A stretch of DNA of 54,112 nucleotides from Teichococcus rhizosphaerae (GTDB taxonomy: Bacteria > Pseudomonadota > Alphaproteobacteria > Acetobacterales > Acetobacteraceae): contig NZ_PDNU01000038.1 of assembly GCF_002631185.1 (NCBI RefSeq), positions 1 to 54,112 of the forward strand, given 5' to 3'. Numbering within the stretch: position 1 is the first letter of the stretch; each line of letters opens with the position of its first letter. Below are positions 18,215 through 30,114 of the stretch, piece after piece. Both the position numbers and the translations under genes were made by a program. Under the pieces are notes generated by a model. It was not told the DNA's origin, ran no database searches, and saw only the letters and a list, made by a program, of their open reading frames with translations.

Positions 18215-19282
18215 ATGCCGTCCTCCGTTCCCCGGCGCGCCTTGTTGGCCGCCCTGGCCACCTCCTCCGCCGCCGGCATGCCCGTGGCCGGCGCCCTGGC
18301 GGCCGCGCCGCTGCCCGGCGCGCCGCCGCCGCCCGCGCTGGCGGAAAGCTGGCGGCACTTCCGGCAGGCTTTCCTGCGGCCGGAGGGGCGGGTGGTGGAT
18401 ACCGGCAACCAGGGTGTCTCGCATTCGGAAGGGCAGGGATGGGCGCTCTACTGCGCCGAGCGCTGCGGCGACCGCGACAGCTTCGACCGCATCTGGGGCT
18501 GGACCCGGCAGGTGCTGGCCCGCCCGCGGGACAGCCTGCTGGCCTGGCGCTACATGCCCGGCGGCCTCACCCCCGTGCCCGACCGCAACAACGCCGCCGA
18601 TGGCGACCTCTTCGCCGCCGCCGCCCTGCTGCTGGCCGGGCAACGCTGGGGAGATGCCGCCTATACGGAGGCGGGCGCCGCCATCGCGCGGGACGTGCTG
18701 CGCCTGCTGCTGCGCGAGGTGGCGGGCGGCACCGTGCTGCTGCCCGCCCTGCACGGCTTCGAGGAGGCGGACCATGTGGTGCTGAACCCCTCCTATTATG
18801 CCTTTCCCATCTTCGGCGTGCTGGCCCGCGCGGTGCCCGACCCGGCCTGGCTGCGCCTGGCGCGGGACGGGCTCGCCCTGCTGCGCCGTGCCCGCTTCGG
18901 CCGCTGGAGCCTGCCGCCGGACTGGCTGAGCCTGCGCCGGGCCGATGGCGCCCTTGCCCTGCCGCCCCGCTGGCCGGGCCGCTTCTCCTACGACGCGGTG
19001 CGCGTGCCGCTCTATCTGTGCTGGGCGGGGCTGGAGGATGAGGCGCCTGTGCAGGCGGCCCGCCGGTTCTGGGCCGACCCTGGCCATGCCTACTGGCCCG
19101 CGTGGGTCGATCTCACCGGCAACCGCAACGCGACCTATCCCGCGTCATCGGGTATGCAGGAGATCGGACGGTGGGTGCTCGAACTGGGAGGTTATCGCGC
19201 AGGAGTTTCAGGAAGCCTGCCACGCCAGGACGATTATTACTCGAATGTCCTGAAAATGTTGATTTTGTCTGCAAAAATATAA
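18215..19282 (+). CDS. bcsZ: GH8 endoglucanase of the cellulose operon (BcsZ/CmcAx)
   Basis: A secreted endo-beta-1,4-glucanase of glycoside hydrolase family 8 that trims nascent cellulose in the periplasm and is needed for proper fibre formation. The 355 residues begin with a signal peptide (RR followed by LLAALATSSAAG, cleavage near AAAPLP). SEGQGWALYCA carries the general-acid Glu and NAADGDLFAAAAL the conserved catalytic Asp of GH8; DDYYSNVLKML is the family C-terminus. It is first in the cellulose cluster, as cmcAx is in Komagataeibacter. The last ~30 codons are distinctly AT-richer than the rest of the gene. 103 AT-rich bases separate it from the next gene. Confidence 0.93.
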   Translation: MPSSVPRRALLAALATSSAAGMPVAGALAAAPLPGAPPPPALAESWRHFRQAFLRPEGRVVDTGNQGVSHSEGQGWALYCAERCGDRDSFDRIWGWTRQVLARPRDSLLAWRYMPGGLTPVPDRNNAADGDLFAAAALLLAGQRWGDAAYTEAGAAIARDVLRLLLREVAGGTVLLPALHGFEEADHVVLNPSYYAFPIFGVLARAVPDPAWLRLARDGLALLRRARFGRWSLPPDWLSLRRADGALALPPRWPGRFSYDAVRVPLYLCWAGLEDEAPVQAARRFWADPGHAYWPAWVDLTGNRNATYPASSGMQEIGRWVLELGGYRAGVSGSLPRQDDYYSNVLKMLILSAKI

Positions 19283-19385: not shown

Positions 19386-20381
19386 ATGGGACAAAATGTC
19401 GATGTGGCGCGGGTGGCGGCTGCGCTGAACATGGCTGGAATCCGCTACCAAACCTTTGCAAACAAACCTGTTTTGGCTGAACGGAAGGACGTGCCCGGCG
19501 TGGCCGCGCGGGCCGTTCCCGTGCCGGCGGCGCCTGAGGCGAAGGCTCCGCCGCTGCCCCAGTCCTCAGTGGCGAGCGTGCAGGAACCGTGTTCTCCGCA
19601 GCACAGCACCGGGGTTTCCGAGGTTGCGGGAGGGGGCGGGGTGCAACCTGTTCTGGACCTTTCCCGGTTGGAAACGGTACTCACGAGGCTGAGAGCAGAA
19701 CATCCGGCCCCGTCCATGCCCGAAGCGCTTCAGCCGCCGCCCGACATGCCGGCCACCGTGGCACCGGTGGCGGCGCCCACGCCGCCGCCGTTGCTGGCCC
19801 CCCTGCCGGCACCCCTGGCCGCGCCGGCCGCCGCCCCCGCAGGGGCAGGCTTCGGCCCGCCGCGCCCAGTGGCGGGGGAAGTGGCGGGGGAATTCGATTC
19901 CACGCCCCTGGCCGCGGCGTTCCAGCCCCGGCCGCAGGCGCCGGCCGCCAGGCCTTCCCTCCTGTTCCGGGAAGTGCTGCCCGCCGCCCCGCCGCCCGCC
20001 GCTCCGCCGCCGGTGGCCGCGCCTCCTGCCGCCGCGCCATCCGCCGCCCCGCTTCCCCCTGCCGCGCCGGCCCCGCTCGGAGGCGCCGCCTCGCTGCTCG
20101 CCGCCCTGCAGGCCTCCGCCACGAAAGCCGCCCTGCCGCCGCCGCGGAGCGGGCTGCTGGCACAGCTCGGCCAGGCCACGCCGCCGCCGGTGCAGCCCGC
20201 CGCGCCCTCCCTGCTGGCGACGCTCGGCGTGCCCTTCGCGCCGCTCGACACCCCGCCCGCGGCCTCCGCCTCCCTGCCCGGCCTGCTGCGCAGCCTGGGC
20301 GCCCCGCCGCCACCCGCCGCGCCGGGCGTCACCCCGCTGGCGGATGTGCTGGGCGGCCTGCGCCCCACCCGGCAGGCCTGA
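19386..20381 (+). CDS. Pro/Ala-rich cellulose operon protein at the BcsH/CcpAx position
   Basis: 331 residues, about half Pro and Ala, with no signal peptide or membrane segment, so cytoplasmic and mostly disordered. The first ~40 residues look folded (DVARVAAALNMAGIRYQTFA). From memory they resemble the N-terminus of Komagataeibacter CcpAx/BcsH, which has a helix followed by a Gly-Tyr-aromatic segment. Residues 226-315 hold repeated short motifs, SLLAALQ (226), GLLAQLG (246), SLLATLG (265), GLLRSLG (289) and PLADVLGGL (307), spaced 19-24 residues in Pro-rich linkers; SLLFREVL (191) is a weaker copy. Its place between bcsZ and the synthase genes matches ccpAx, whose product organises BcsD. 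BcsO/BcsP-type Pro-rich proteins are the alternative. bcsQ starts 13 bases after its stop. Confidence 0.75.
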   Translation: MGQNVDVARVAAALNMAGIRYQTFANKPVLAERKDVPGVAARAVPVPAAPEAKAPPLPQSSVASVQEPCSPQHSTGVSEVAGGGGVQPVLDLSRLETVLTRLRAEHPAPSMPEALQPPPDMPATVAPVAAPTPPPLLAPLPAPLAAPAAAPAGAGFGPPRPVAGEVAGEFDSTPLAAAFQPRPQAPAARPSLLFREVLPAAPPPAAPPPVAAPPAAAPSAAPLPPAAPAPLGGAASLLAALQASATKAALPPPRSGLLAQLGQATPPPVQPAAPSLLATLGVPFAPLDTPPAASASLPGLLRSLGAPPPPAAPGVTPLADVLGGLRPTRQA

Positions 20382-20394
20382 GGAACGCCGCCTG

Positions 20395-21225
20395 ATGCCG
20401 CTGATCGCGTTTGTTTCCCCCAAGGGAGGGGTGGGCAAGACCACGCTGGCCGCCAACGTGGCCGATGCCCTCCGCCGCGGCGGCCGTGCGGTGCTGGCCC
20501 TGGACCTGGACCCGCAGAACGCGCTGCGCCTGCATTTCGGCGTGCCGCTGCACGACACGGGCGGCTTCATGGCCGAGCTGCCGCGCCGGCCGGACTGGCG
20601 CGCGCTGGTCCGCCGCACCGCCCCGGACGTGCTGCTGCTGCCGCATGGCGCCATCGAGCTGCGCGCGGCGCTGGAGCAGGCGCTGCTGCTGGAGCGCGAG
20701 CCCGCCACGCTGGCCACGCCCCTGCGCGAGATGCTGTCCGACCCGAAGCTGCTGGTGGTGGCCGACCTGCCGCCCGGCCCTTCCCAGGCCCTGGCCGTGG
20801 CCGCGCCGCTCGCCACCGTCATCGTGACGGTGCTGCAGAGCGAGGCGATCAGCACCGCCATGCTGGCCGAGGTGGAGAGCGGGCGCTTCCTCGGCGGCGG
20901 CACCATGGCCGCGCTTTTCGGCGGCAGGCTGCAATTCGTCCTGAACGGCGTCGATCTCCGCGCCCGGCTGTCGCGCAGCGCGGCCGAGGTCGTGGCGCGC
21001 CATCTGGGGCCACGCCTGCTCGGGGCCGTCAGCCGCGACGAGGCGGTGGCCGAGGCGCTGTCGGAGATGCGCCTGGTGCAGGACATGGCGCCGGCCAGCG
21101 CGGCGGCGGGCGATCTGCGCCACGTCGCGCGCGCGATCGAGATGCTGTTGCCGGCCATGCCCGAGGTGGCGCCCGCGGCTTCCGCCGCCGGCCCGCTGCC
21201 GGGGCTGCTGCGGGGGGGATGGTAA
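20395..21225 (+). CDS. bcsQ: Cellulose biosynthesis ATPase BcsQ (MinD/ParA-like)
   Basis: A MinD-like ATPase of the BcsQ/YhjQ family, which localises or activates the cellulose synthase complex at the inner membrane face. The deviant Walker A VSPKGGVGKTTLAANVADAL is at residues 7-26 and is intact with both lysines. LDLDPQNALRLHFGV is typical of BcsQ, and ADLPPGPSQAL is the switch region. The protein has 276 residues, somewhat longer than E. coli BcsQ (about 250), because of an Ala/Pro tail ending in GPLPGLLRGGW, which resembles the SLPGLLRSLG motif of the preceding protein. The ATG at 20395 follows GAGGA; bcsAB starts 4 bases after the stop. Confidence 0.92.
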   Translation: MPLIAFVSPKGGVGKTTLAANVADALRRGGRAVLALDLDPQNALRLHFGVPLHDTGGFMAELPRRPDWRALVRRTAPDVLLLPHGAIELRAALEQALLLEREPATLATPLREMLSDPKLLVVADLPPGPSQALAVAAPLATVIVTVLQSEAISTAMLAEVESGRFLGGGTMAALFGGRLQFVLNGVDLRARLSRSAAEVVARHLGPRLLGAVSRDEAVAEALSEMRLVQDMAPASAAAGDLRHVARAIEMLLPAMPEVAPAASAAGPLPGLLRGGW

Positions 21226-21229
21226 GCGA

Positions 21230-24200
21230 ATGCGGCGTTTCCGCGGGCTGATGGCGCGCCTGCCGCTCCTCAGCGGCATGATGGCGATCCTGGGCGCCCT
21301 TCTCGGCTTCGTCTTCGTGGTCTCGCCCCTGGAGCCGATGGAACAGCTCGCCCTGGCCGGGGCGGGGCTGCTCATCTTCCTGGCGGTGTCGCGCGTGCCG
21401 GGGCGTGGCGCGATGTTCTTCCTGATGGCGCTCTCCAGCCTGATGTCGCTGCGCTACCTCTACTGGCGGCTGACCGAGACGCTCGATTATGGCGGCTTCA
21501 TCGGCACCTTTCTCGGCACGGGCCTGCTGCTGGCCGAGATCTACGCCGTCATCGCGCTGCTGCTCTCCTATTTCCAGCAGCTCTGGCCGCTGGAGCGCAG
21601 GCCGGTGCCGCTGCCGCCCGACCCGGCGGAGTGGCCGGTCGTGGACGTGTTCATCCCCAGCTACAACGAGCCGCTGGAGGTGGTGCGCCCCGCGGTGTTC
21701 GGCGCCATGGCCATGGACTGGCCGCGCGAGAAGCTGAACGTCTACATCCTCGATGACGGGCGCCGGGAGGACTTCCGCAAGTTCGCCGAGGAGGTGGGCT
21801 GCGGCTACATGATCCGCCCCGACAACAAGGGCGCCAAGGCCGGCAACATCAACCACGCCATGACCAGGACGAAGGGCGAGTACATCGTCATCTTCGACTG
21901 CGACCACGTGGCCACCCGTGCCTTCCTGCAGCTCACCATCGGCTGGATGGTGCGCGACAAGGGCATCGGCATGTTGCAGACGCCGCACCATTTCTACTCG
22001 CCCGATCCCTTCGAGCGGAACCTCGCCTCCGGCAAGCGCGTGCCCAACGAGGGGCTGCTGTTCTACGGCCTGGTGCAGCAGGGCAACGACCTCTGGAACG
22101 CCACCTTCTTCTGCGGCTCCTGCGCCGTGCTCCGGCGCACCGCGCTCGAGGAGGTGGGCGGCGTGCCGACCGAGACGGTGACGGAGGATTGCCACTGCTC
22201 GCTGAAGATGCAGCGGCTCGGCTGGCGCACCGCCTATCTGCGCGTGCCGCTGGCGGCCGGCCTGGCGACGGACCGCCTCATCGCGCATATCGGCCAGCGC
22301 ATGCGCTGGGCGCGCGGCATGGTGCAGATCTTCCGCGTGGACAACCCGATGCTCGGGCCGGGGCTGAAGCTCTACCAGCGGCTCTGCTACGTCAACGCGC
22401 AGTGGCATTTCCTCTTCCCGCTGCCGCGCTTCGTCTTCCTCACGGCGCCGCTGGCCTTCCTGCTGTTCGGCCAGAGCATCATCGCCGCCTCGCCGCTGGC
22501 CATCCTGGCCTATGCCGGGCCGCACATCTTCCATTCCATCGGCACCAACAGCCGCGTGCAGGGCAAGGTGCGCCACAGCTTCTGGTCCGAGATCTACGAG
22601 ACGGTGCTGGCGCTCTACCTGCTGCCCGTGGTGCTGGCGACGCTGTTCGACCCCAAGAAGGGCAAGTTCAACGTCACCGACAAGGGCGGCACGCTGGAGG
22701 AGGGCTATTTCGACCTGCGCGCCGTGGCCGCCAATTTCGTGCTGGCCATCGTGCTGGTGCTCGGCCTGCTGTCGGGCATCTACGGCATGGCGGCGAACCC
22801 CCCCTCCAGCCTCGAGTTCCAGGCCAACGCGCTGAACTCCATCTGGGTGGTGCTGTCGCTCGTCACGGTGATGGCGGGCCTCGCCGTGGGCCGCGAGCGG
22901 CGGCAGGTGCGCGAGCGGCACCGCGTGCATGCGCGCCTGCCGGTGGCGGCCGTGCTGGCGGATGGGACCCGCCTCGCCGGCGAAAGCATCGACGTCTCGC
23001 TGGGCGGCGCCGCCCTGATGCTGGAACGCCGCGACGAGATCCCGGCCGAGACGCGGCTGCACCTGGAATTCGATATCGGGCCGGAGCGCATTCTGCTGCC
23101 GGCCGAAGTGCTGCGGTGGCAGGACGGCCGCCTGCAGGCCCGCTTCGAGCCACAAGGGCTGATGGATGAAGGCAATATTGTCCGCGTCGTGCTCGGCCGT
23201 GCCGATGCCTGGCTGGACTGGGACCATGTGCGTCCCGACCGCCCCCTGCGCGCCCTGCTGGAGGTGGTGGTGAGCATCACCGGCCTGTTCCGTGGCGACA
23301 GCCAGATCTCGCTGCGGGGCCGGCGCAACCGCCGCGCCGCCAGGGCCCGCGCCGAGGCGGGCGGCGCCACCGGCAAGGCGGCCAGGCTCCGCCGCGCCGC
23401 CGCGCTGCTGCTGACCGCGGGCCTCGCCTGGCCGGGCACGGCCGCCGCGCAGCGGCCGCAGGCGCCTCCGCCTCCGCCGCCGGTTTCCATGCCGCAGGCG
23501 GCGCCGCCCTTCGCCGCCCCGCAGCCTTCCGCGCCCGCCTTCGCGCAGCCCGACCCGGGCGTGGCGCCGCTGCCCGGCGGCACGCTCTTCGGCGCGCCCC
23601 CGGCCGATGGCAATGTCCGCATCCAGACCCGCACCCTGCGCCAGCTCGGCCTCGGCGGCCCGATGCAGCTGCGCGGCACGTCGGACCTCCAGGGCGTGCT
23701 GTTCGGCATCCGCTCCGACGAGGTGGTGACCGGCGCCCGGCTGGTGCTGCAGGGCGCGAGCAGCCCGGCGCTGATCCCCGAGCTCAGCCAGATCGCCATC
23801 ACGCTGAACGAGCAGTTCGTCGGCACCATCACGCCAGACCGCGCGCGCCCCTCCTTCGGGCCGGTCGAGTTCCCGGTGAACCCGGTCTTCTTCGCCGATG
23901 TGAACCGGCTGAACTTCCGCTTCACCGGCCGCTACGCGGTGGAGTGCAACGACCCGCTCTCGGGCCTGCTCTGGTCCACGATCTCGGACCTCTCCACCCT
24001 GCACCTGACGGTCGAGCGGCTGCCGCTGGCGCGCGACCTGGCGCGGCTGCCCGAGCCCTTCTTCGACCGCCGCCTGCGCAACGAGCGGCTGGTCCTGCCC
24101 GTGGTGATGCCCGACATGGCGGGCAACGAGCTGGTGCGCGCCGCCGCCATCGCCAGCTCCTGGTTCGCCGTGCAGGCCGACTACCGCGGCGCCAGCTTCC

Positions 24201-25756
24201 CCGTCAGCACCAGCGTGCCGCCGCGCGGCAACGCCATGGTGATGGTGGCGGGGCAGGAGACGGTGCCCGGCCTCGCCCTGCCGCGGATGGAGGGGCCGAC
24301 CCTCGCCGTGGTGCCCAACCCCGCCGATCCCGGCGCCACGCTGCTGGTGGTGGGCGGCCGCACCGCCGCCGAGGCGGTGACGGCGGCGCAGGCGCTGGCC
24401 GTGGGCCCGCAGGCGCTCTCGGGCGAGATCGCCATGGTGTCGTCGCCGGAGATGGTGGCGCGCCGGCCCTATGATGCGCCGCGCTGGATCAACAGCGACC
24501 GCCCCGTGCGCTTCGGCGAGCTGGTCGATCCCTCCGAGCTGCAGAGCTACGGCTTCGCGCCCGGCAACATCGCCATCCCCTTCCGCACCGCGCCCGACCT
24601 CTACACCTGGCGCGACCGCGCCATGCCGGTGAACCTGCACTTCCGCGCCCCTCCCGGCCCCATCACCGACGTGGCGGTCTCGCGGCTCGACGTGGCGCTG
24701 AACAACCTCTACCTGCACTCCTTCCCGCTGCGCGAGATGGAGCCGGGCTGGCCGTGGAACTGGCTGGCGCGGCAGACCGGCCTCGGCGCCGCGGGCGAGC
24801 GGGGCAGCGGCGAGGTGGGGCTGCCGCCCTATCTGGTCTTCGGCCAGAACGAGCTGCAGATGCGCTTCGACATGCGGCCGCTGAACCGCGGCGACTGCAT
24901 CTCCATCCCCGGCGACGTGCGCGCCGCCATCGACCCCGACAGCACCATCGACCTTTCGCGCGCCTACCGCTTCACCGAGCTGCCCAACCTCGCCTATTTC
25001 GCCGGCGCCGGCTACCCCTACACGCGGCTGGCCGATTTCTCGACCACCGCCCTGGTGCTGCCCGACCGCGCCAACACGCTGGAGCTGTCCACCGCGCTGG
25101 CGCTGGTGGGCCACCTGGCGGCCAATGTCGGCCACGCCGCCACCCAGCTCCAGATCGTCCGCCCCAACGCGCTGGAGCAGATGGCCGACCGCGACCTGCT
25201 GGTGGTGGGCTCGCTCGGCCGCCAGCCGGCGCTTGGCGCGCTGCTGCGGCAGGACGGGCCGGTGAGGGTCGAGGGCAGCCGCGTCAGTCTCGCCCTGCCG
25301 GGCGCCCTGGAAGGCTTCCGCAACTTCTTCATTGGCGACGACCGGCTGCGCGAGCGGCAGCGGCTGGAGGCGATGCTGGCCTCGCCGGGCGAGGGGATGG
25401 GCATGCTGGCCGGGTTCCAGAGCCCGCTGCGCGGCGGCCGCTCGGTGGTCGCGATCAGCGGCACCAACCCGCAGGGGATGGAGGCGATGATGGCGGCGCT
25501 GCGCGACCCCGCGCTGGTGCCCCTGATCCAGGGCGACCTGGCGCTGCTTTCGGGCGGCCGGATGGCCTCCTTCAAGACCGTCCCCAGCTACACGGTGGGC
25601 GATCTGCCGCTGCATCTCTGGCCGCAATACTGGCTGGGCAAGCGGCCGGACATGCTGCTGGGCCTGGCCCTGCTGTCCTCCCTGCTCATCGCCATCCCGA
25701 CCTACTGGCTGCTGCGCCGCCGGGCCGCCCGCCGTCTGAGGACCAGGACGCAATGA
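21230..25756 (+). CDS. bcsAB: Fused cellulose synthase catalytic and periplasmic subunits BcsA-BcsB
   Basis: A 1508-residue fusion that makes cellulose from UDP-glucose and passes it through the inner membrane. The BcsA half (about 1-700) has N-terminal membrane helices, GT2 motifs D175 (LDDGR), D223/D225 (FDCD), FFCGSCAV, TED 318-320 and QRMRW 356-360, more helices, then a PilZ domain with RQVR 558-561 and DVSLGG 588-593 for c-di-GMP. The junction (about 716-741) has RR, a hydrophobic run and TAAAQ, like a signal peptide. The BcsB half follows a Pro-rich linker, with carbohydrate-binding and flavodoxin-like domains, and ends with a membrane helix near 1475-1495. Fused AcsAB is known from Komagataeibacter. 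The stop overlaps the bcsC start (ATGA). Confidence 0.96.
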   Translation: MRRFRGLMARLPLLSGMMAILGALLGFVFVVSPLEPMEQLALAGAGLLIFLAVSRVPGRGAMFFLMALSSLMSLRYLYWRLTETLDYGGFIGTFLGTGLLLAEIYAVIALLLSYFQQLWPLERRPVPLPPDPAEWPVVDVFIPSYNEPLEVVRPAVFGAMAMDWPREKLNVYILDDGRREDFRKFAEEVGCGYMIRPDNKGAKAGNINHAMTRTKGEYIVIFDCDHVATRAFLQLTIGWMVRDKGIGMLQTPHHFYSPDPFERNLASGKRVPNEGLLFYGLVQQGNDLWNATFFCGSCAVLRRTALEEVGGVPTETVTEDCHCSLKMQRLGWRTAYLRVPLAAGLATDRLIAHIGQRMRWARGMVQIFRVDNPMLGPGLKLYQRLCYVNAQWHFLFPLPRFVFLTAPLAFLLFGQSIIAASPLAILAYAGPHIFHSIGTNSRVQGKVRHSFWSEIYETVLALYLLPVVLATLFDPKKGKFNVTDKGGTLEEGYFDLRAVAANFVLAIVLVLGLLSGIYGMAANPPSSLEFQANALNSIWVVLSLVTVMAGLAVGRERRQVRERHRVHARLPVAAVLADGTRLAGESIDVSLGGAALMLERRDEIPAETRLHLEFDIGPERILLPAEVLRWQDGRLQARFEPQGLMDEGNIVRVVLGRADAWLDWDHVRPDRPLRALLEVVVSITGLFRGDSQISLRGRRNRRAARARAEAGGATGKAARLRRAAALLLTAGLAWPGTAAAQRPQAPPPPPPVSMPQAAPPFAAPQPSAPAFAQPDPGVAPLPGGTLFGAPPADGNVRIQTRTLRQLGLGGPMQLRGTSDLQGVLFGIRSDEVVTGARLVLQGASSPALIPELSQIAITLNEQFVGTITPDRARPSFGPVEFPVNPVFFADVNRLNFRFTGRYAVECNDPLSGLLWSTISDLSTLHLTVERLPLARDLARLPEPFFDRRLRNERLVLPVVMPDMAGNELVRAAAIASSWFAVQADYRGASFPVSTSVPPRGNAMVMVAGQETVPGLALPRMEGPTLAVVPNPADPGATLLVVGGRTAAEAVTAAQALAVGPQALSGEIAMVSSPEMVARRPYDAPRWINSDRPVRFGELVDPSELQSYGFAPGNIAIPFRTAPDLYTWRDRAMPVNLHFRAPPGPITDVAVSRLDVALNNLYLHSFPLREMEPGWPWNWLARQTGLGAAGERGSGEVGLPPYLVFGQNELQMRFDMRPLNRGDCISIPGDVRAAIDPDSTIDLSRAYRFTELPNLAYFAGAGYPYTRLADFSTTALVLPDRANTLELSTALALVGHLAANVGHAATQLQIVRPNALEQMADRDLLVVGSLGRQPALGALLRQDGPVRVEGSRVSLALPGALEGFRNFFIGDDRLRERQRLEAMLASPGEGMGMLAGFQSPLRGGRSVVAISGTNPQGMEAMMAALRDPALVPLIQGDLALLSGGRMASFKTVPSYTVGDLPLHLWPQYWLGKRPDMLLGLALLSSLLIAIPTYWLLRRRAARRLRTRTQ

Positions 25757-29640: not shown

Positions 29641-30114
29641 ATGACGCAGATGGACCCCGCGGCGCTGGCCTATCTCGCGCGGCGGGATGTCAGCGCGCAG
29701 TGGCGTGGCTTCCTGCGCGCCCTGCTGGAGACGCTGGACGCGCATCTCGACCGCAACACCCGCAACGGCCTGCTGCGCGCCGTGGGCACGCGGCTCGGCC
29801 AGGCGGTGCCCTTGCCGGCGGCGGCCACGCTGCCCGAGCTGGAGGCGCGGATGAACGCCGCCCTGGCCGAGCTTTCCTGGGGCTATGTCGCCGTGGCGCT
29901 GGACGAGACCGACCGCAGCCTGCGCCTTTCGCACCACGCCGCCCCCGCCGTGGGCGCGGCCGGGGACGAGGCGGGGGAATGGTTCGCCACTGTGCTGGAG
30001 GGGCTCTACGCGGCCTGGCTGGCGCAGCAGCAGGGCGGCGGCGCCGAGGGTGGGCCGCAGCTCCGCCTGGTCCGCCACGAGCCGGGGTTGGCGGAGCTGC
30101 GCTACGGCAGCTAG
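29641..30114 (+). CDS. bcsD: Cellulose synthase subunit D (BcsD/AcsD)
   Basis: BcsD forms ring-like octamers that, in Komagataeibacter, build a cytoplasmic belt aligning synthase complexes for crystalline cellulose. The 157-residue length equals known AcsD (about 156). Matching features are NGLLRAVGTRLGQ, the LEARMNAALAELSWGYVAVAL segment, and AGEWFATVLEGLYAAWLAQQ, all in AcsD order. The ATG at 29641 has GAAGGA six bases upstream; a GTG at 29623 would add six residues and has no better site. It is 45 bases after bcsC and is the last gene of the cluster; a GC hairpin follows its stop. No bglX homologue follows. Confidence 0.92.
   Translation: MTQMDPAALAYLARRDVSAQWRGFLRALLETLDAHLDRNTRNGLLRAVGTRLGQAVPLPAAATLPELEARMNAALAELSWGYVAVALDETDRSLRLSHHAAPAVGAAGDEAGEWFATVLEGLYAAWLAQQQGGGAEGGPQLRLVRHEPGLAELRYGS

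Follow-up and report, generated by a model that had tools for sequence, protein, structure and literature searches.

Two classes of leucine motif in a BcsP-like protein of Teichococcus rhizosphaerae, one of which accompanies bcsD

Introduction

The attachment of BcsD to cellulose synthase bears on the secretion and the ordering of cellulose. According to PMC11470070, BcsD builds large assemblies with proline-rich partners, and two proline-rich organisers of BcsD, BcsP and BcsH, are already published. The same source describes BcsP as rich in proline and BcsR-like at its N-terminus; it is reported there to recruit BcsD, with BcsQ enhancing its expression or its stability. The C-terminal helices of BcsR are described as stabilising the BcsQ dimer. 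The role of BcsP as a BcsD scaffold is already known.

The bcs operon of Teichococcus rhizosphaerae raises the question of which partner is served by a series of short leucine motifs. We analysed a stretch of 54,112 nucleotides (contig NZ_PDNU01000038.1, positions 1 to 54,112; hereafter the window), in which a proline- and alanine-rich protein carries five such motifs, read in an earlier note on this DNA as a single uniform array with an echo in the C-terminus of BcsQ.

The bcs operon and its proline-rich protein

The following features were identified in the operon.

18215..19282, + strand: bcsZ, GH8 endoglucanase (PF01270, E 1.4e-60)
19386..20381, + strand: bcsP-like gene, Pro/Ala-rich product of 331 aa (from translation and synteny)
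19386..19481, + strand: BcsR-like N-terminal pattern, residues 1-32 (conserved in relatives; AlphaFold helix 2-14)
20395..21225, + strand: bcsQ (PF06564, E 2.2e-24; TIGR03371, 158.4 bits, cut-off 157.85)
21230..25756, + strand: bcsA-bcsB, a single ORF of 1508 aa
25753..29595, + strand: bcsC (from its position and its matches beside bcsB in relatives)
29641..30114, + strand: bcsD (PF03500, E 5.5e-42)

The bcsP-like gene is placed between bcsZ and bcsQ, in an operon that has bcsD; the window BcsD has relatives of solved structure, among them the BcsD chains 7zzq and 8pog. The gene order bcsZ-bcsP-bcsQ-bcsA recurs in many relatives, and the gene between bcsZ and bcsQ in these relatives starts with a shared pattern, approximately DVARVAAALxxPGxRYRSFGNxPVR. 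The genus of the window genome was represented by 17 genomes, and Pseudoroseomonas vastitatis and P. oryzae were placed among its members in a BcsQ tree.

The window protein returned zero Pfam or NCBIfam matches at E<=1, leaving PF17040 (BcsH/CcpA), PF17037 (BcsO), PF10945 (BcsR) and the curated BcsP model NF040718 all unmatched, and PDB sequences gave no match at E<=10. The BcsP of a further locus, L139, was likewise unmatched by the curated BcsP, BcsR, BcsO and CcpA models at E<=10, and those of L180, L213 and L216 matched NF040718 weakly, below its cut-off. As NF040718 was unmatched, we file the window protein as BcsP-like, outside the family of that model. Profile-profile comparison of the Acetobacteraceae N-termini with gammaproteobacterial and betaproteobacterial ones and E. 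coli BcsR gave a probability of 58 over only 26 columns, with an E-value of 1e-4 in one comparison of that length, which is compatible with a BcsR-like hairpin and falls short of proof. The body of the protein is proline-rich and predicted to be largely disordered (AlphaFold mean pLDDT 55, nine-row alignment). On the grounds of synteny, architecture and the N-terminal pattern we call the protein BcsP-like, and it is best read as a putative alphaproteobacterial BcsP, a published type of BcsD/BcsQ scaffold.

Five leucine motifs of two classes

The five motifs, and one further predicted helix, are as follows.

19659..19700, + strand: predicted helix LSRLETVLTRLRAE, residues 92-105 (best-scored model element, block mean pLDDT 79)
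20091..20111, + strand: copy 1, SLLAALQ, residues 236-242, LLxxL class
20151..20171, + strand: copy 2, GLLAQLG, residues 256-262, LLxxL class
20208..20228, + strand: copy 3, SLLATLG, residues 275-281, LLxxL class
20271..20300, + strand: copy 4, SLPGLLRSLG, residues 296-305, class C LxxhhxxL (profile 9.9; predicted helix 297-304)
20334..20366, + strand: copy 5, PLADVLGGLRP, residues 317-327, class C (profile 8.9; predicted helix 317-323)

Translation of the ORF at 19386-20381 placed all five motifs where the earlier note had put them, with cores 19-24 residues apart (20, 19, 24 and 21 residues in turn), all in the last third of the protein. Its expectation that the motifs are conserved while the linkers drift also held for the window protein and its closest relative, at locus L072: 33/40 motif residues are identical, against 33/56 in the linkers among the motifs, 103/193 aligned positions in residues 33-235 and 27/32 in the N-terminal 32 residues. 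When the motif mask was shifted circularly along this pair, 2 of 96 shifts reached the motif identity value, the unshifted one included.

It could be supposed that copies 1-3 have no partner and simply reflect a GC-rich reading frame full of Leu, Ala and Pro codons, and that only copies 4 and 5 matter. The pattern LL..[LIVM] is present five times after residue 40 of the window protein, with 0.77 expected (2000 shuffles, p 0.0005), a count that includes PLLAPLP, absent from the earlier list, and misses copy 5. The same pattern exceeds shuffling (p<0.05) in 11/13 other proteins of the genus group, and lies within the shuffle expectation in L067 (p 0.116) and L075 (p 0.2985). These two proteins, and the fact that the motifs were picked after the sequence had been read, favour a by-product, but the enrichment in the window and in the 11 others, and the higher conservation of motifs than of linkers in L072, speak against it, and we hold this explanation to be distinctly unlikely.

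Across the genus, the BcsPs (n=12) span 205 to 524 aa, and their linkers vary in length and composition. By eye, a first subgroup shows SLLAxLQ, LLAQLG, LLAxLG and LxxLLRxh along with ends resembling DVLRGLR, and a second shows SLLMxLRG, SLLEQLRAS, GLLxLLAQPAVWD, SLAEVFRxV and SLKDILRGLR, some members of each being without some copies. In the BcsP of L068 (genome G004), the linker before motif 4 is enlarged by a repeat of the type PYQEPxQPFVQQPAYV.

The motifs themselves fall into two classes. In copies 4 and 5, a leucine stands three residues ahead of the hydrophobic pair (LxxhhxxL, class C). We scored the window protein with a class C profile built from 78 tails of bcsD-bearing systems, with the genus excluded: copy 4 ranked first (9.9), copy 5 second (8.9) and copy 3 third (2.5), and 95% of shuffle peaks lay at or below 6.2 and 99% at or below 9.9. 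The BcsP of genome G008, a member of the genus, scored -0.7, and the best score in E. coli BcsR was -8.6. The AlphaFold model of the window protein, a weak one (nine sequences, mean pLDDT 55, pTM 0.18), has helices at residues 2-14, 92-105, 297-304 and 317-323, so that copies 4 and 5 are predicted helical and copies 1-3 are not, at low confidence. A model of the BcsP-BcsQ chain from P. vastitatis places helices of at least 4 residues within BcsP at 2-14, 239-246 and 258-267, the latter two coinciding with its last two motif copies. The motif helices had block mean pLDDT values of 54-66 (window protein) and 38-50 (P. vastitatis), with copies 1-3 of the window close behind at 47-50. Taken with the tail survey below, the profile and the models divide what had been read as one uniform array into class C copies 4-5 and LLxxL copies 1-3.

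The stretch at residues 92-105 (LSRLETVLTRLRAE) has the form LxxVLxxL, and a similar stretch is present in L072.

Distribution of the class C motif and of bcsD

We identified bcsD in 121/397 genomes of the family and 14/398 of the phylum. One search for relatives contributed the best 80 of 372, and the class C pattern was fixed after tails had been inspected. The survey covered the last 80 residues of BcsP, BcsO or BcsH, with relaxed class C defined as [LFVIM]xx[LVIM][LFM]xx[LVIMF]. Of 121 bcsD-bearing entries at the outset, 118 matched the strict pattern (the misses being L087, L115 and L120) and 121 the relaxed one. Removal of L181, which has no bcsD, and L151 left 119 entries, in 10 of which bcsD lies elsewhere in the genome, outside the BcsP locus; with the window they come to 120, of which 108 are non-redundant. 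Nine bcsD-bearing entries were excluded because their frames were judged wrong or truncated (L092, L096, L117, L123, L134, L135, L145, L184, L214), and 8/9 lacked the pattern as picked; other frames found in L117 and L134 have the tails SEVFRLL... and KVFSMLEKN...LNEIFR. The wrong BcsP pick in L159, a bcsD-less locus, was swapped for another frame and not dropped. No BcsP was picked in L082, L089, L091, L104-L109, L121, L125, L182, L236, L239 and L242. We set aside a Fisher test on the class C and bcsD counts because the entries are related. Apparent BcsD fusions were rejected, as the long BcsD frames looked, by eye, like open frame 5' of the real start.

Every one of the 108 non-redundant tails whose genomes have bcsD carries the relaxed class C motif, with 6.5 expected by shuffling, and 105/108 carry the form with a leading leucine. 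Of these tails, 60 come from Acetobacteraceae or near, 36 from enterobacteria and 12 from other groups. At least two hydrophobic cores were present in the last 80 residues of 71/108 tails with bcsD (4.2 expected) and of 0/18 bcsD-less ones. Similarly, class C was found in 0/18 BcsP tails from loci scored bcsD-less, and in 0/1 for G008. These 18 comprise 11 genomes without a bcsD match and seven loci in genomes with bcsD elsewhere, one of which, L192, is shortened and uncertain, the sole bcsD match of its genome being assignable to either of two operons. In G008, where a threshold as loose as E<=10 still brought no bcsD match, the BcsP is the shortest in the genus (205 aa) and has no class C match, and it keeps two LLxxL copies and the end TLELLRGLR. 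At its locus (L074, 11606-17001), bcsC directly precedes the gene that sits after bcsD in the window.

The sampled genomes bear on whether all five copies might act together as an array for multivalent binding of BcsD octamers. That all five are conserved against L072, that the class C profile puts copy 3 in third place (2.5) and that BcsD forms large assemblies with proline-rich partners (PMC11470070) would agree with such an array. However, copies 1-3 have no leucine at the leading position of class C, and the model predicts no helix for them; the bcsD-less G008 keeps two LLxxL copies and loses class C; and in most bcsD systems beyond the genus group the tail motifs are seen, by eye, with no array of this kind. 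We therefore consider a single BcsD-binding array unlikely.

On the BcsQ tree (n=102, omitting most enterobacterial entries and the near-copies L138, L148, L184 and L206), the three labels require five changes. The bcsD-less entries are a clade of ten, which may represent an old second operon type, six from Siccirubricoccus, Neoroseomonas and Roseomonas, two from Roseicella, G008, and Candidatus Sodalis (L181). Four of these five bcsD-less lineages are without class C; the exception is Sodalis, a symbiont with no bcsD match in its genome, which retains the motif. As bcsQ is present in every bcsD-less lineage, BcsQ alone does not explain the class C motif. In Roseicella, compared with three sisters (bcsD status being known for all of these except Dankookia), the class C block is gone and WPLL is retained.

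Many bcsD-less loci are also without a nearby bcsZ. Nevertheless, bcsZ is kept where bcsD is missing in L149, L153, L154, L157 and L074, and in part in L150, indicating that the association of class C with bcsD is more than a shrunken operon. No bcsA was found beside bcsQ in L150, L152 and L156. The bcsD-less genomes are mostly drafts, and their loci contain no N-runs. Seven Acetobacteraceae loci (L158, L159, L160, L165, L167, L190 and L192) are bcs loci without bcsD in genomes that have it elsewhere, and their BcsPs share a conserved FALLDEI-type motif.

Synteny, the N-terminal pattern and a tight association of class C with bcsD, and not with bcsQ, are observed. Since class C accompanies bcsD and is missing in nearly all bcsD-less relatives examined, copies 4 and 5 are suggested to be BcsD docking sites; this pattern of presence and absence, with its one exception, suggests direct binding of BcsD by the two copies. 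The idea of a disordered proline-rich chain with partner-binding motifs stands in so far as it concerns BcsD, which is the better supported partner and for copies 4-5 only, and fails for a motif shared with BcsQ (see below). Short amphipathic helices spaced along a disordered chain could also self-associate or condense, and the motifs might drive such behaviour of BcsP, but on this account class C would not be expected to disappear along with bcsD, and we regard it as very improbable.

Comparison with known scaffolds

The BcsP of betaproteobacteria (NF040718; Sana et al. 2024, as cited in PMC11470070) is likewise proline-rich and encoded with bcsD and bcsQ, and it has a BcsR-like N-terminus, for which the pattern of the window protein is a candidate counterpart. 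Class C motifs are found in the tails of the homologues at L232 and L233 and in that of the window protein, which differs in being unmatched by NF040718 and in having three extra LLxxL copies. E. coli BcsR (PF10945; PDB 6yar, 9fnn) starts with a short hairpin region, to which the N-terminus of the window protein may correspond, and shares an LLxxh motif, there a helix, but it is a 62-aa protein of a type II system, without a proline-rich tether or class C. For the enterobacterial BcsO (PF17037), the protein at L197 matches above the cut-off and ends LHSLLERIASCR, a class C tail, although the N-terminal pattern used for BcsP was not found there.

The Komagataeibacter BcsH/CcpA (PF17040) is a proline-rich partner of BcsD, like the window protein. 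The proteins at L115 (7126-8349) and L120 (3491-4675) match PF17040 and combine a BcsR-like N-terminal pattern, judged by eye, with a class C-like tail pair, for example TMEEMFMILGG ... STLRDAL, that matches the relaxed pattern and not the strict one; unlike the window operon, both loci gave no bcsQ match. Because of this N-terminus and these tails, BcsH may be a variant of BcsP. A profile comparison of BcsH and BcsP C-termini returned no alignment.

The class C signature spans BcsP, BcsO (L197) and BcsH/CcpA (L115, L120). We did not find this commonality, or the absence of class C without bcsD, in the literature searched, and it may well be in print. If BcsP, BcsO and BcsH do have a short BcsD docking motif in common, this could be tested with peptides, could reveal BcsD scaffolds missed by annotation, as here, where the curated models were unmatched, and could be traced through lineages that gain or lose bcsD.

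A proposed adaptor between synthase and BcsD

We propose, with a probability of roughly 0.6, that the window protein is a BcsP-like cytosolic adaptor whose N-terminus sits at BcsA and whose copies 4 and 5 dock BcsD across a Pro/Ala tether. The BcsR-like N-terminus would contact the synthase BcsA, by analogy with the published BcsR structure and BcsP models, and the long tether would link it to the motifs of the tail. Copies 4 and 5, as short amphipathic LxxhhxxL helices at the end of the tether, would dock BcsD, and BcsD assemblies would be brought to the synthase through them. Copies 1-3 are extra motifs of the genus group that may make weak contacts, perhaps to BcsQ, given how often BcsPs, whether bcsD is there or not, have an LLxxh motif resembling the helix RWPLLAEF of E. 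coli BcsR, the C-terminal helices of which sit on BcsQ. Such an LLxxh helix might bind BcsQ in the manner of those BcsR helices (PMC11470070).

More broadly, BcsP, BcsO and BcsH could form one modular family of tethered adaptors, with a hairpin for BcsA, LLxxh for BcsQ and an LxxhhxxL pair for BcsD, whose modules were gained, multiplied and deleted with their partners. The Roseomonas-like genus would then have multiplied the middle module, the array tuning valency. We offer this extension tentatively and think it rather doubtful.

The LLxxL copies and BcsQ

Copies 1-3 may duplicate a putative BcsQ-binding helix of this kind, provide additional contacts to BcsD, or have no partner. It has to be considered whether the motifs, or at least copies 1-3, bind BcsQ as helices comparable to the one at the C-terminus of BcsR. 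Motifs of this kind are found with and without bcsD, LL[^P]x[LIVMFA] being present in 99/119 bcsD-bearing BcsPs (41.5 expected) and in 15/18 bcsD-less ones (4.6 expected), and RWPLL is found both in E. coli BcsR and in the betaproteobacterial BcsPs of L232 and L233. Against this, a profile built from bcsD-less LLxxh motifs gave at best 5.7 for copies 1-3, below the 95% level of shuffles (8.3), and its top match in the window protein was copy 5 (10.8). In the AlphaFold model of the L139 BcsP-BcsQ read-through chain, the BcsQ part of which is closest to solved BcsRQ chains, the LLxxL copies stay at low confidence (a reading of confidence values only, without contacts). BcsQ-binding helices would also leave the association of class C with bcsD unexplained, and we judge this account improbable.

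Inside the BcsP part of the read-through model, confidence rises clearly at one stretch only, residues 142-153 of the L139 protein, AAPAFPAHWLPG, to which DFPAGWLAGG is the counterpart in P. oryzae.

The supposed echo of the motif at the end of BcsQ is the following feature.

21193..21222, + strand: BcsQ tail, PLPGLLRGGW (conserved in L072 only)

We rejected this tail as a shared motif, as it is unconserved, being present in 2/12 genus BcsQs, those of the window (PLPGLLRGGW) and L072 (PLSGLLRGGW). A tryptophan lies within the last four residues in 11/12 genus BcsQ tails (GGW, TRW, WGTR), surveyed at 21220-21222 of the window and at the BcsQ C-termini of L066-L075 and L136, the last being the exception.
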